From assembly GCA_021794355.1 (NCBI GenBank), contig JAJYRA010000072.1, positions 1-64,000 of the forward strand: DNA of 64,000 nucleotides. Direction: 5' to 3'. Below are positions 31,784 through 38,334 of the stretch, piece by piece. The stretch's first letter is position 1; every line of letters starts with the position of its first letter. Below the pieces are notes generated by a model. The model was not told the origin of the DNA and searched no databases. It saw nothing but the letters and a program-made list of their open reading frames with translations. This stretch comes from Thermoplasmata archaeon (GTDB taxonomy: Archaea > Thermoplasmatota > Thermoplasmata > Thermoplasmatales > Thermoplasmataceae). A program made the translations under genes and the position numbers.

Positions 31784-32983
31784 TTATTCCAGTTCCTGGA
31801 AATAGTCATTCTTGAAATGATACTTGAAGAGCCACTCATAATGTCCGTGCAATGATCCCCAGTAAATTTTCTCCATTACCTTTTTTTCCATGTAATTTGT
31901 TCTAGATGGAACAATCTTTTCCACGGGGGTATCGTAGGTACCAACTACGAAAGTCGCCTTATGGAAACCTGTTTCCATGGAACACTGTGTTCTTCCCGTG
32001 AACTTATATCTTTTTTTTGTGCCCTTGATTTCTCCTATTATGTTGTTGGCCACTACAACGCCTTCAAGATGGGCTTCTACACCTGCCTTTGAAATTGGGA
32101 TATTTGTTGTGTCCCCAATGGCGAATCCATTATCATAGCTTGTAATGTGCAGATCCCTCTTGTCAACTTTAACCCATCCATCTTCATCAGCAATTTCAGA
32201 TCCCTTCAGGAATCCTGCAGGTTTATGCGGTGGTGTCAGGAACAGATAATCATACTTCAAGGTCTCTCCCTCAAGGGATGTTATCTCTTTCTTACCTGAA
32301 TCGACTGAATCTGTGTTGAATGTGGTTATGCTCTCTATGGATCTGGATTCATACAAAGGCTTGATAACTTCATTTATTGGTTCAGCCGAATATATCCTTG
32401 TGAAAGGCGTTATATAGGTTATTTCTACCTTATCTCTTATTCCGGCCTTCCTAAAGTGTTCATCCAGCATGAATGCAGATTCGTTGGGGGATGGAGGACA
32501 CTTATATGGAAGACCTCCTATTCCCACCACTATCTTGCCTGATTTTATCTTTCTTACCTGTTGATATATCAGGCTGGAGTTTTGGGCATTTGTATGGAAG
32601 TCCATATTTGCTTCCCTAAGTCCTGGAATCTGATCATAATCGGGAGATGACCCAGTTGATATTATGATGTAATCGAAGTTGATCTTTTCGTTGCTCCCTT
32701 CTGTTTTTATATACCGGTTTGCGAGATCTACCTTTTCGCAGTTATCATAAACAATGTTTACGCCGTTTGATAATAGTTTTTTCATAGGTCTCCTGATCTT
32801 GGAGGGATCTGTTCCACGGAAGGCAACCTCAAGGTATCCTGGTTGGAATTCCTGTTCCTTCTTCTTATCAAAAATTGTAATGGAAACTTCTCCATTCTTA
32901 ATTTCACCTGACAGGCTCTTTGCTAACTTGCTTGAGGTTATTAAACCTCCAGCTCCACTTCCTATTATTGCTATTTTTTTCAT
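31784..32983 (-). CDS. sqr: Sulfide:quinone oxidoreductase-like flavoprotein
   Basis: KIAIIGSGAGGLITSSKLA; GGLPYKCPPSPNESAFMLDEHFRK; AIGDTTNIPISKAG; RTQCSMETG. Confidence 0.88.
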   Translation of the reverse strand: MKKIAIIGSGAGGLITSSKLAKSLSGEIKNGEVSITIFDKKKEQEFQPGYLEVAFRGTDPSKIRRPMKKLLSNGVNIVYDNCEKVDLANRYIKTEGSNEKINFDYIIISTGSSPDYDQIPGLREANMDFHTNAQNSSLIYQQVRKIKSGKIVVGIGGLPYKCPPSPNESAFMLDEHFRKAGIRDKVEITYITPFTRIYSAEPINEVIKPLYESRSIESITTFNTDSVDSGKKEITSLEGETLKYDYLFLTPPHKPAGFLKGSEIADEDGWVKVDKRDLHITSYDNGFAIGDTTNIPISKAGVEAHLEGVVVANNIIGEIKGTKKRYKFTGRTQCSMETGFHKATFVVGTYDTPVEKIVPSRTNYMEKKVMEKIYWGSLHGHYEWLFKYHFKNDYFQELE

Positions 32984-34455
32984 TTTACATCACCTTTTAT
33001 GGGTATCGGGGTTATTTTCTTGACTTCTCTCAGTACGACGTAATGGTATGTTGATATCCCGATTCCCAATATCATCACAACGAAACCCGCGATAATCATT
33101 GCGTTGCTTTCCTGAGTTATAAGGGAGGAGGGTATTTTTACAAGATATCTGGAATTAGCGCTCAGGCTCTCAAGGCCAATCGCCACGAGGATTAGCCCAA
33201 ATATCAAAGAGAATATGCATTGTTCCAGAAGGGAACGATATATTGAGACATCCTTTGCAGTATTTGTTTTCCTGACTTTGTTCCCGGCCAGTCTGGTGCT
33301 GAGAAATATATAAGCAAAGTATCCTGCAACGCTTCCAAGTATTATTCCTACTGTGAAAACGAGACCGAACAATGAAAGGCCAGCCAGACCGCTCCAGAAC
33401 CCGCCTACACTGCAACCCTGTGCAATTCTGGCTCCTATTGCAATTATCACTCCACCAAAGAAGCCGATGGATAAATCGCCCGCCTTACTGGCGGACCCTG
33501 ATGGAAGCCGTATTTTGAAAGTGCCTCTTGCCATGGAAAATATTGTCGATCCTGCAATAATCATCAGTATAAAAAATGAAAATGCACTTATCACAGGTAT
33601 TGTTTGGTACCAATTAGTGGACAAACCGCTTCCGCCAAGATATATACCAAAGGGTGAAAGAAGATATTGTGAGAAGAGTGCAACTGGAGTCGTAACTCCA
33701 AGGTAATTAAACATATGACCTGCGGCGAATATGAATGAAGCAATCATTGCAAAAGAGAAGACTGTTCCAATGAAGTATGGTGAGTTCATGATAGCCTTTT
33801 TCCCTTTGGGAGCGGAGTTTCCTAGACTTCCTACCCGTCTCTTCCTAAGGATGAGTGCAGCCCAAATGAGGGCTAGGAAGAATAGTATTCCCACGATTGC
33901 TGCACCTGCTGTAGCAGTAATTCCCGGTAACAAATTGGGTACATAGTTCAGGGTACTTCCATTTCCAACATTGCCAGTTCCCGTAACCTTCCACCAATGG
34001 GCGAGATCCAGCCAGTTGAAAATTGGAAAAGCGAATATAATTGAACCCAATGCAAGACCTAGGAGTTCCATCCAGTTTACAACGTATCCCGATCCGGATT
34101 TCCACAACATCCCGACCATGCACCCCTGACCAAGCATCATTCCAAAACCAAAGATGAAGGACCCCAGAAGGGTGAACCATCCTGCACCTGGTAGGAAGGC
34201 ATATGCATCAACAACGGGAACAGCACCAACTGCTACAAGAAGTCCTGTTCCCAACGATGAAACTGCGATGCTAACCAGAATTATTTCATAAATGCTACTG
34301 TATCTCAGACCCATTACCTGATGAGTTGCTATTACCATGCAATAGGTTTTTTTCTCGGCATATCCTCCAAACAAGAAGCCCAGTACTGCATAAAAAATTA
34401 CGGCCATTATTGGAGCGTAAATAAGTAAAGGAATAGCAGACATAGGATCACTCAC
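32980..34455 (-). CDS. YeeE/YedE family (sulfur compound) transporter, two fused halves
   Basis: GQGCMVGMLWKSGSGYV and AQGCSVGGFWSGLAGLS conserved Cys motifs in two hydrophobic halves. Confidence 0.88.
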   Translation of the reverse strand: MSDPMSAIPLLIYAPIMAVIFYAVLGFLFGGYAEKKTYCMVIATHQVMGLRYSSIYEIILVSIAVSSLGTGLLVAVGAVPVVDAYAFLPGAGWFTLLGSFIFGFGMMLGQGCMVGMLWKSGSGYVVNWMELLGLALGSIIFAFPIFNWLDLAHWWKVTGTGNVGNGSTLNYVPNLLPGITATAGAAIVGILFFLALIWAALILRKRRVGSLGNSAPKGKKAIMNSPYFIGTVFSFAMIASFIFAAGHMFNYLGVTTPVALFSQYLLSPFGIYLGGSGLSTNWYQTIPVISAFSFFILMIIAGSTIFSMARGTFKIRLPSGSASKAGDLSIGFFGGVIIAIGARIAQGCSVGGFWSGLAGLSLFGLVFTVGIILGSVAGYFAYIFLSTRLAGNKVRKTNTAKDVSIYRSLLEQCIFSLIFGLILVAIGLESLSANSRYLVKIPSSLITQESNAMIIAGFVVMILGIGISTYHYVVLREVKKITPIPIKGDVK

Positions 34456-34456
34456 T

Positions 34457-34702
34457 TTAAGATTTCTTTCCAGTTACCTTGAGTGTTACTTCAAAGTAAT
34501 TATCCACTTCCTTTGATCCCACAAATTCATTCCTCGTTCTCTCGCACCATGCTTTTGAGTCAGGAACTACCCCTGGATCGTTTGCAATAATCACAATCGT
34601 GTCTCCGTTCTGAGACTTCTTGTAAGCCCTGATCAGGTCAGTAATTGGGCCGGGGCAGGCTGTTCCTCTACTATCAACATTCATTGTCGTCATCTTTATC
34701 AT
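34457..34702 (-). CDS. tusA: TusA/SirA-like sulfur carrier
   Basis: NVDSRGTACPGPITDLIRAYKKSQNGDTIVIIANDPGV; CPGP motif. Confidence 0.88.
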   Translation of the reverse strand: MIKMTTMNVDSRGTACPGPITDLIRAYKKSQNGDTIVIIANDPGVVPDSKAWCERTRNEFVGSKEVDNYFEVTLKVTGKKS

Positions 34703-34703
34703 C

Positions 34704-35132
34704 TCACAATACAATTATCTGGTTCTCAGCAGATTGGATCATGAAGTTTGTTGCTCCAACGATATCCTCAATCATTGGATCAAGATCACCCTTCTGCAGG
34801 TTCAACGCACTGGACATTAGTGAGCAGGCATACACCTTCACGTCTCCTTCCTTGATGGAATTCTTTAAAAGTTCATGCCAGCCTTCGAACTTGATTCGTT
34901 TCAATCCATCCCTAAGTTCTTTCATGTATTCCGAAAAACCAGCAGGCGAAACGGATTCTTTCTTGTATCCATCCTTAAGAAAACATTGCAACGCAGTGCC
35001 CGTAACAAATATTCTAAGGGGCATGCCCAGATTCGCTGCCGTTTGTGTTAATACTCCCAGCATTATCATCTTCTCCTCCGTTCCAGTCGAAACAACAATT
35101 GATATCCCTTTTTCCGTCATTTTTGACACCAA
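34704..35132 (-). CDS. DsrE/DsrF-like sulfur transfer protein
   Basis: ISIVVSTGTEEKMIMLGVLTQTAANLGMPLRIFVTGTAL...KVYACSLMSSALNLQKGDL. Confidence 0.82.
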   Translation of the reverse strand: MVSKMTEKGISIVVSTGTEEKMIMLGVLTQTAANLGMPLRIFVTGTALQCFLKDGYKKESVSPAGFSEYMKELRDGLKRIKFEGWHELLKNSIKEGDVKVYACSLMSSALNLQKGDLDPMIEDIVGATNFMIQSAENQIIVL

Positions 35133-36891: not shown

Positions 36892-37152
36892 TCAGTAAGC
36901 CTTTTGCGCTTCCATAATTTCGTGTTTAGTTGGCGGGTTTAACTTCTCTAAAAATTCCTTCATGGAATTTATGCTTGGTGCCTCCCAATTACAAATTGCT
37001 TTCAATTCTGAGTCCAAAACATTGATAGACTTAAGCTGAAATCCTTCTGGTAGTTTCCCGTCATTAGCCATCTGTATAATGCCAGCTATGGTTTTTTTAA
37101 CTTCTTCATTAGCATGATTTTTCCACCTGTGTTCAACTATTATATTTGCCAT
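36892..37152 (-). CDS. Small conserved ~87-aa protein, tandem paralog A
   Basis: MANIIVEHRWKNHANEEVKKTI...PEGFQLKSINVL...AICNWEAPS...LEKLNPPTK aligns along its length with 37308..37568. Confidence 0.75.
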   Translation of the reverse strand: MANIIVEHRWKNHANEEVKKTIAGIIQMANDGKLPEGFQLKSINVLDSELKAICNWEAPSINSMKEFLEKLNPPTKHEIMEAQKAY

Positions 37153-37194
37153 TTAAATCATGTATACTATTAAAATGCTGCATATATTAATACT

Positions 37195-37213
37195 GCCGTT
37201 ATGTATTGGTATA
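37195..37213. promoter_or_regulatory. Conserved upstream motif, copy 1
   Basis: GCCGTTATGTATTGGTATA abutting a TATA-like element upstream of paralog A; 17/19 identical to copy 2. Confidence 0.65.
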
Positions 37214-37307
37214 TTACTCTTTATTTGATCTATAAACCCTTATACATGCCATAATCAAAATAAGAAATGCCGTTTTCAAAAAAAATATTCTTAAAAAAAA
37301 GAGTGGT

Positions 37308-37568
37308 TTAAACAATTCTCTGAGCTTCTGAAACTTCGTTCTTTGTTGGAGGATTTATTTTCTCAATAAAATCTTTCATATCTCTGACGCTGGGTGCATC
37401 CCAGTTACAAATTGCTCTAGGCTCTGAGCCAAGAATGTTTACTGACTTTAGTTCAAATCCTGGAGGTAATGTTTTATCTCTTGACATCTGGACTAAATTT
37501 CCGACAACCTTTTTCACTTCTTCTGCGTTATGCGTTTTCCACCTGTGTTCAACAATTACATTTGTCAT
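37308..37568 (-). CDS. Small conserved ~87-aa protein, tandem paralog B
   Basis: MTNVIVEHRWKTHNAEEVKKVV...PPGFELKSVNIL...AICNWDAPS...IEKINPPTK; ORF track opens at 37577. Confidence 0.75.
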   Translation of the reverse strand: MTNVIVEHRWKTHNAEEVKKVVGNLVQMSRDKTLPPGFELKSVNILGSEPRAICNWDAPSVRDMKDFIEKINPPTKNEVSEAQRIV

Positions 37569-37612
37569 ATTTTTCACTAGAAATATATCAATGGTTGGGC
37601 TATATATTTATA

Positions 37613-37631
37613 GCCGTTGTGTATTGGCATA
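37613..37631. promoter_or_regulatory. Conserved upstream motif, copy 2
   Basis: GCCGTTGTGTATTGGCATA between paralog B and the divergent regulator. Confidence 0.65.
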
Positions 37632-37632
37632 T

Positions 37633-38334
37633 ATGCAGGAAATAGTTCTCGAAATAGACAATACCTTTCCTTTCAACATTATTTCAAAGGACTTTAAAGA
37701 ACTGAAATTCTATAGATGGTGCAACTCAAGCATTGACTATCTTGAGTTTTATGGGGAAAATGAAAAGTTGGACAAACTCGATTCAAAACTGGATAAAGTT
37801 GAAAAGAAGTTAGGAACAAAAACGATCTACAAAAGCAGACAGCCTTCTAAAATGACTCTGATGCTCAGCTGCAGTTGCAGTATTCACAACTCATCCATCC
37901 GGGTTGCAGAATCATTAAATTGCCTCTGGAAAGGGCCAGTAATGTATGCAAACGGAGTAGAGACATTAACTCTGATCGTTGTGGAGGGTCACGATCTCAT
38001 GGATGTTATCTCAGTTTTCAAGAAAAATGGAAATGTTTCGTTGATAAAGAGCATTCAGATGATGCCAGATTCCCTTAGAAGCACTTATACTCTTTCAATT
38101 TCAAGTCTCTTCAATCAATTAACGGAAAAGCAGGCGCATATGCTAAAGATTGCAATTGAATCAGGTTACTTTAAAATTCCCAAAAATACCCACATCTCAC
38201 ATCTTGCTAAAAGAGGTGGTCTTTCGGTATCAACTGCACAAGAGCATCTTAATAAGGCTAAAAGCAAACTCATGAAAAATATGGAGCCATACATAAATCT
38301 GTACCTTACACTAATGGAGCAGAATAATGTGTAG
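37633..38334 (+). CDS. Bacterio-opsin activator-like HTH_10 transcription regulator
   Basis: LTEKQAHMLKIAIESGYFKIPKNTHISHLAKRGGLSVSTAQEHLNKAKSKLMKNM C-terminal HTH_10; start moved to MQEIVLEID. Confidence 0.85.
   Translation: MQEIVLEIDNTFPFNIISKDFKELKFYRWCNSSIDYLEFYGENEKLDKLDSKLDKVEKKLGTKTIYKSRQPSKMTLMLSCSCSIHNSSIRVAESLNCLWKGPVMYANGVETLTLIVVEGHDLMDVISVFKKNGNVSLIKSIQMMPDSLRSTYTLSISSLFNQLTEKQAHMLKIAIESGYFKIPKNTHISHLAKRGGLSVSTAQEHLNKAKSKLMKNMEPYINLYLTLMEQNNV

Follow-up and report, generated by a model that had tools for sequence, protein, structure and literature searches.

A conserved dyad as the predicted shared operator of an HTH_10 regulator and a small ferredoxin-fold protein in Thermoplasmata

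HTH_10 proteins are abundant in archaea, and to our knowledge binding targets and signals are known for very few of them. Archaeal activator sites lie on the upstream (BRE) side of the TATA box; the upstream activator sequence of bop adjoins TATA, starts with ACC, ends with GG and is about 15-16 bp long. The closest described regulators are Bat and DmsR of Halobacterium, which carry a C-terminal HTH_10-type domain, as does the regulator described here. For the bop regulon, Bat is the activator gene, and an upstream activator sequence is present in the bop promoter (PMC1447603). Bat senses through GAF and PAS domains; our regulator, which unlike Bat is predicted to control its own divergent neighbour, instead has a short HVO_A0563_N region whose cysteines are conserved. 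Among small proteins, SCO4226 of Streptomyces (PF14026), of about 85 aa, has the ferredoxin-like fold that is also predicted for the small proteins studied here; it is a nickel protein with the Ni-1 ligands His76, Asp43 and Ser46 (PMC4186839). These ligands are not the residues conserved in our small proteins, which, unlike SCO4226, have a divergent HTH_10 partner. The bacterial sulfane-sulfur responsive repressors sHdrR and SoxR (PMC12423496) share with this locus only the control by reactive sulfur that we propose below; their DNA-binding family, ArsR, is unrelated to HTH_10. A divergent, autoregulated regulator-target pair is a known kind of system. In the literature searched, we found no description of the operator reported here, of its cross-class conservation with an exchanged target or of the small-protein family context, and no account of HVO_A0563 or of HTH_10 in Cuniculiplasma.

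The locus lies in a 64,000-nucleotide stretch, called the window as a whole, of a 2.05-Mb Cuniculiplasma-related genome. Its features are as follows.

36892-37152, minus strand: SP1, tandem paralog of SP2 specific to this lineage, with a predicted operator of its own and no adjacent regulator
37182-37190, minus strand: TATA-like element of SP1, assigned from the sequence
37195-37210, no strand: predicted operator 1, dyad ACCAAT-ACAT-AACGGC (minus-strand reading), upstream of the SP1 TATA box
37308-37568, minus strand: SP2, 86-aa protein of predicted ferredoxin fold, paired divergently with the regulator; of the two paralogs, the one retained in orthologous loci
37600-37613, no strand: near-symmetric TATA element, assigned from the sequence and the fixed dyad-to-TATA register in orthologs, with a putative function
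37613-37628, no strand: predicted operator 2, dyad GCCAAT-ACAC-AACGGC (minus-strand reading)
37633-38334, plus strand: HTH_10 regulator, 233 aa, HVO_A0563_N sensor region and C-terminal HTH_10 domain

Conserved starts of homologs set the start codons of SP2 (ATG 37568, giving 86 aa, not the upstream GTG of the ORF list) and of the regulator (ATG 37633, not the longest-ORF ATG 37435). A first-pass annotation had described a 19-bp repeat at 37195-37213 and 37613-37631, identical at 17/19 positions, lying 42-44 nt from the starts of the small genes and, in its second copy, directly before the regulator ATG. All of this is confirmed: the inner end of the dyad is 42 nt (SP1) and 44 nt (SP2) from the start codon, and copy 2 stops 1 nt ahead of the regulator ATG. 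The repeat resolves to a dyad with a 16-bp core, RCC(G/A)NT-N4-AMCGGY, flush with the TATA box. In the window, 0.02 matches to the 19-bp motif are expected by chance at 3 mismatches; the genome-wide search that the annotation had proposed returned exactly two copies at up to 2 mismatches, and the sole 3-mismatch match elsewhere in the genome (C5:8069) is without an adjoining TATA-like stretch and without a related gene. An operator model recovers operator 1 with E 0.002 (the match covers 37182-37211, including the TATA-like element of SP1) and operator 2 with E 1.5e-4 in their own genome. With a weight matrix built from other species only, the two operators are the top two sites of the window (17.3 and 15.8, the next site scoring 12.3), scores that are not decisive by themselves because 1 of 20 shuffled windows reached 18.5.

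We consider it probable that the repeat is the operator of the neighbouring regulator, which would activate the small protein, repress its own gene and respond to a thiol-reactive signal, more likely reactive sulfur, with the 86-aa proteins as effectors. Comparison across homologs establishes that the operator and its register are conserved. Upstream of close small-protein homologs there is a 16-bp element with the consensus ACCGGTCCAGAACGGT, matched at 10 or more of 16 positions in 43 of 45 promoters; the L005 promoter carries a palindromic variant, GCCAATCCACGTTGGC, and L022 is the one case among the 45 with no dyad within 100 nt. The element stands directly upstream of the TATA box, with A at +19 and the TATA core at +23 to +27 counted from the dyad start, so that absence from orthologous loci, one of two objections anticipated in the first-pass annotation, does not apply. 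Complementarity at symmetric positions of the dyad is found in 78% of cells, compared with no more than 47% for slid registers. Because compensatory change between the half-sites does not exceed that in shuffles (58/500), it is this symmetry that points to binding by a dimer.

The dyad accompanies a pair of genes. The same HTH_10 regulator is encoded divergently at 40 of 45 loci, in most cases with 0-7 nt between its ATG and the dyad, and the shared intergenic operator is conserved with the pair. Relatives of the regulator are the sole widely recurring neighbour besides the small protein (32/36 loci); in the Thermoplasmata neighbourhoods, no conserved gene beyond this pair hints at the function of the effector. 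Counting close homologs only (regulator at E below 1e-80, small protein at E below 1e-30), 39 of 77 family genomes have both genes, 36 have neither, one has the regulator only and one the small protein only (Fisher p = 1e-19, for genomes that are not independent). In the genus g94, the small proteins L060, L061 and L074 retain the dyad without an adjacent regulator, and the unlinked regulators L164-L166 retain it 2-4 nt ahead of their own ATG; the assignment of L060, L061 and L074 to g94 genomes is suggested by the sister position of L063. SP1, which is not divergent to the regulator, keeps the dyad as well. Together with g94 it forms a natural trans test, in which the dyad stays when small protein and regulator part.

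As judged from these comparisons, control by the regulator is well supported, and the first-pass proposal of shared control with autoregulation gains from the dyads in 43/45 promoters, the co-occurrence of 39 against 2 genomes and the dyads at unlinked loci. The same annotation saw a module of regulator, operator and two paralogs. Its shared operator holds; the usual unit is one small protein with a divergent regulator, the second paralog (SP1) being specific to the lineage of the window. In f13, another family of the class, where the small protein is only 25-29% identical, its divergent neighbour in several genomes is a related HTH_10 regulator, and a different palindrome, near CGTTGCNTACGCAACG, lies between the pair (L119, L120, L122 and L123), possibly a co-evolved switch of operator.

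In the proposed mechanism, a regulator dimer would bind the 16-bp dyad. At the small-protein promoters the dyad abuts TATA on its upstream (BRE) side, where the bound regulator would recruit TFB/TBP and turn the small protein on. The regulator promoter would run the opposite way from the same near-symmetric TATA element, whose placement would suit SP2 on the minus strand as well as the regulator on the plus strand, where it lies about 26 nt ahead of the ATG. Operator 2 is common to both promoters, lying upstream of TATA for SP2 and between TATA and start for the regulator; at the latter, the dyad fills the TATA-start gap, and binding would block transcription. With about 25-32 nt between the TATA centre and the ATG, the regulator transcript is probably leaderless. 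The position of its site suggests that the small protein is activated, and it is the combination of the site positions with the behaviour of HTH_10 proteins for which genetic data exist that leads us to favour activation with autorepression. The same operator and regulator could also work as a divergent repressor of both promoters, released by ligand, since the dyad abuts or overlaps the small-protein BRE and lies between TATA and start at the regulator promoter, where a bound dimer could block TFB and RNA polymerase, respectively. We regard this as unlikely by analogy: the place directly upstream of TATA is the usual one for an activator, and Bat and DmsR, the HTH_10 proteins with genetic data, are activators (PMC1447603).

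SP1 and SP2 are 59-61% identical and are sister paralogs in a tree. The AlphaFold model of SP2 (pLDDT 91.7) has the order beta-alpha-beta-beta-alpha-beta, and its fold matches belong to the wider dimeric alpha/beta-barrel superfamily. The model predicts a ferredoxin-like fold with high confidence, in agreement with the guess in the first-pass annotation. Among the residues invariant in 23 homologs are His8, Trp10, Met28, Cys54 and Trp56; from strand parity, His8/Trp10, where strand 1 ends, may share one face with Cys54/Trp56 of strand 3. Of 300 Thermoplasmata genomes, 65 encode homologs; only a minority of these are close, with 38-71% identity to SP2. The small proteins of the window have no Pfam match to PF14026, and searches against NCBIfam and PDB sequences gave no convincing relatives. 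A search of viral contigs found no relatives. Relatives within the class match PF14026 weakly (L035 17.7 bits, L032 14.1 bits, others 20.7-23.6, against a gathering cut-off of 28.5) and therefore bridge the small-protein family and SCO4226, and the intermediate homologs that match are likewise divergent to an HTH_10 regulator. The small proteins thus probably share the fold and a distant ancestry with SCO4226 while standing outside the SCO4226-like family by the Pfam threshold, which qualifies the earlier statement that they have no assigned function: a distant known relative exists. As SCO4226-like effectors, they would bind or buffer, through the invariant His8, Met28 and Cys54, the same species that the regulator senses, and the effector gene would have been duplicated here together with its own operator. 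The small protein of Thermoplasma and relatives thereby gains a predicted fold, a set of invariant residues and a regulatory context.

By the domains tested, the regulator is a member of the HTH_10/HVO_A0563_N family: it matches HTH_10 (PF04967) with 62.1 bits (cut-off 23.1, E 4e-17) and HVO_A0563_N (PF24280) with 37 bits (cut-off 27, E 4e-9), the latter being matched by its haloarchaeal relatives with 121-146 bits. Pfam finds no GAF or PAS domain of the Bat type in it. The order of elements in its AlphaFold model (pLDDT 91) suggests two ferredoxin-like repeats in the N-terminal half; a fold search with the whole model gave no convincing match. Across the Thermoplasmata set, cysteines C30, C80 and C82 do not vary, the CxC at 80/82 is retained in most haloarchaeal homologs, and the position of C30 is occupied by a residue other than Cys in most of them. 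The signal would most likely be read by C30 and the C80xC82 pair, and a thiol-reactive species, more likely reactive sulfur (persulfide or polysulfide) than a thiophilic metal, would be the ligand.

Haloarchaeal members of the family bear on both operator and signal. They are near-reciprocal best hits of the regulator in 8 of 9 genomes (the exception is G120, where a paralog has the higher score) and, as exemplified by VNG_RS12465 on pNRC100, resemble it in domain architecture, CxC and the place of the dyad relative to a TATA-like stretch; they differ in being about 25-28% identical, mostly without C30, and in having the dyad 32-33 nt from the annotated regulator start, as against 0-7 nt in Thermoplasmata. 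Of 14 haloarchaeal intergenic regions, 12 carry dyads of the RCCGGT-N4 type, e.g. GCCGGTCATGTCCGGC; most of their core columns are invariant, and toward the divergent gene a TAT again occupies the +24 register. Scored singly with the Thermoplasmata matrix, only some of these dyads exceed shuffles, and at sequence level their strength lies in identical place and conservation, not in single-site scores. By sequence comparison, operator and regulator family are conserved together to this depth. The first-pass operator claim was incomplete as regards extent, the operator being a dyad that reaches haloarchaea, where it has a different target.

That target is a sulfur operon, in contrast to the small ferredoxin-fold protein of the window: in 10 of 14 haloarchaeal loci the divergent gene encodes a rhodanese/metallo-beta-lactamase protein, followed by an MFS transporter. 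On pNRC100 the relative of the regulator is surrounded by TauE/SafE, two YeeE/YedE, TusA, DsrE and thioredoxin genes. In g94, a TauE/SafE-family gene of the same strand immediately precedes the unlinked regulators L164-L167 (Pfam on L164 only). The link to sulfur is drawn from haloarchaea and g94; a neighbourhood survey found no recurrence of sulfur genes beside the small protein in other loci. The window itself has a sulfur-trafficking cluster near SP1 (32980-35132, minus strand; YeeE/YedE-type transporter, TusA, DsrE-like), with an Nramp gene in between, and similar genes surround the haloarchaeal relative on pNRC100. For the YeeE/TusA/DsrE2 genes of this cluster no operator was found, the top matrix hits including no dyad-like site there.

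The same module might alternatively answer to a thiophilic or transition metal (Ni, Cu, As, Hg), with the small protein as a SCO4226-like metal buffer. The distant match of the small-protein family to SCO4226-like proteins fits such a role, as SCO4226 binds nickel and is nickel-induced (PMC4186839), as do the CxC and further Cys of the regulator, which can bind metals, and the Nramp gene adjoining SP1. We find it doubtful nonetheless: the nickel ligands of SCO4226 differ from the residues conserved in the small proteins, the haloarchaeal relatives are divergent to sulfur genes rather than metal exporters, and Nramp is not a recurrent neighbour. Extending our preferred signal, reactive sulfur, to the whole family, we suggest tentatively that HTH_10/HVO_A0563_N proteins could be archaeal reactive-sulfur sensors that work through cysteines and share one ancient operator code, RCCGGT-N4-nCCGGY adjoining TATA, whose target was exchanged between haloarchaea, where it would be a persulfide-handling rhodanese/MBL operon, and Thermoplasmata, where it would be a SCO4226-like small protein of new function. 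An operator code apparently conserved across archaeal classes with exchange of its target is of interest in its own right, and the guess at the signal is testable.

The operator model, applied to 18 genomes, mostly finds a single strong site per genome, and the regulator therefore seems to act locally on a dedicated target, SP1 being a second one. The weaker sites examined are in unrelated or coding places, and on both grounds a wider regulon is not supported in the genomes searched. One HTH_10 family thereby gains a predicted operator at base resolution and a minimal target, one small gene and itself, of which the window genome offers a natural two-copy regulon. The binding target of a poorly understood regulator family becomes predictable and, more tentatively, so does the sensing of reactive sulfur. 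The constant spacing of a dyad flush with TATA would also be expected of a core-promoter variant, an extended BRE bound by general factors instead of the regulator. This is highly improbable, given that the dyad is found in one to few places per genome, tracks the presence of the regulator, precedes the regulator ATG at unlinked loci and is found again next to members of this regulator family in haloarchaea.

SP1 and SP2 could owe their common upstream repeat to duplication, the other objection anticipated in the first-pass annotation. Between the two genes, the regions 5' and 3' of the dyad do not align better than shuffles do, and identity is 43 of 87 (49%) at third codon positions, compared with 14/16 in the dyad. 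Recent duplication of the flank therefore does not explain the repeat and is ruled out as its sole cause. That the repeat is a functionless relic of recent tandem duplication, as the sister relationship of SP1 and SP2 might suggest, has a negligible chance of being correct, since divergence has affected the flanks and the third codon positions but spared the dyad, which is conserved across the class.

Several minor observations concern relatives of the three genes. A weak dyad-like site (L098, 1501-1525) lies just upstream of a rhodanese-like ORF in G252. L033, L034 and L036 represent a second, distant small-protein paralog (about 29% identical) without a divergent regulator and without the dyad, and serve as a natural negative control for it. 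Distant paralogs of the regulator at L170, L173 and L180, also without the dyad, are located near metallo-beta-lactamase-like proteins (Lactamase_B_5 in 2 of 3). In three genomes, one of them a single-contig assembly, the regulator gene contains an in-frame stop (TAA or TGA; L014/L152 in G120, L032 in G031, and G297:C9), and dyad and small protein remain.
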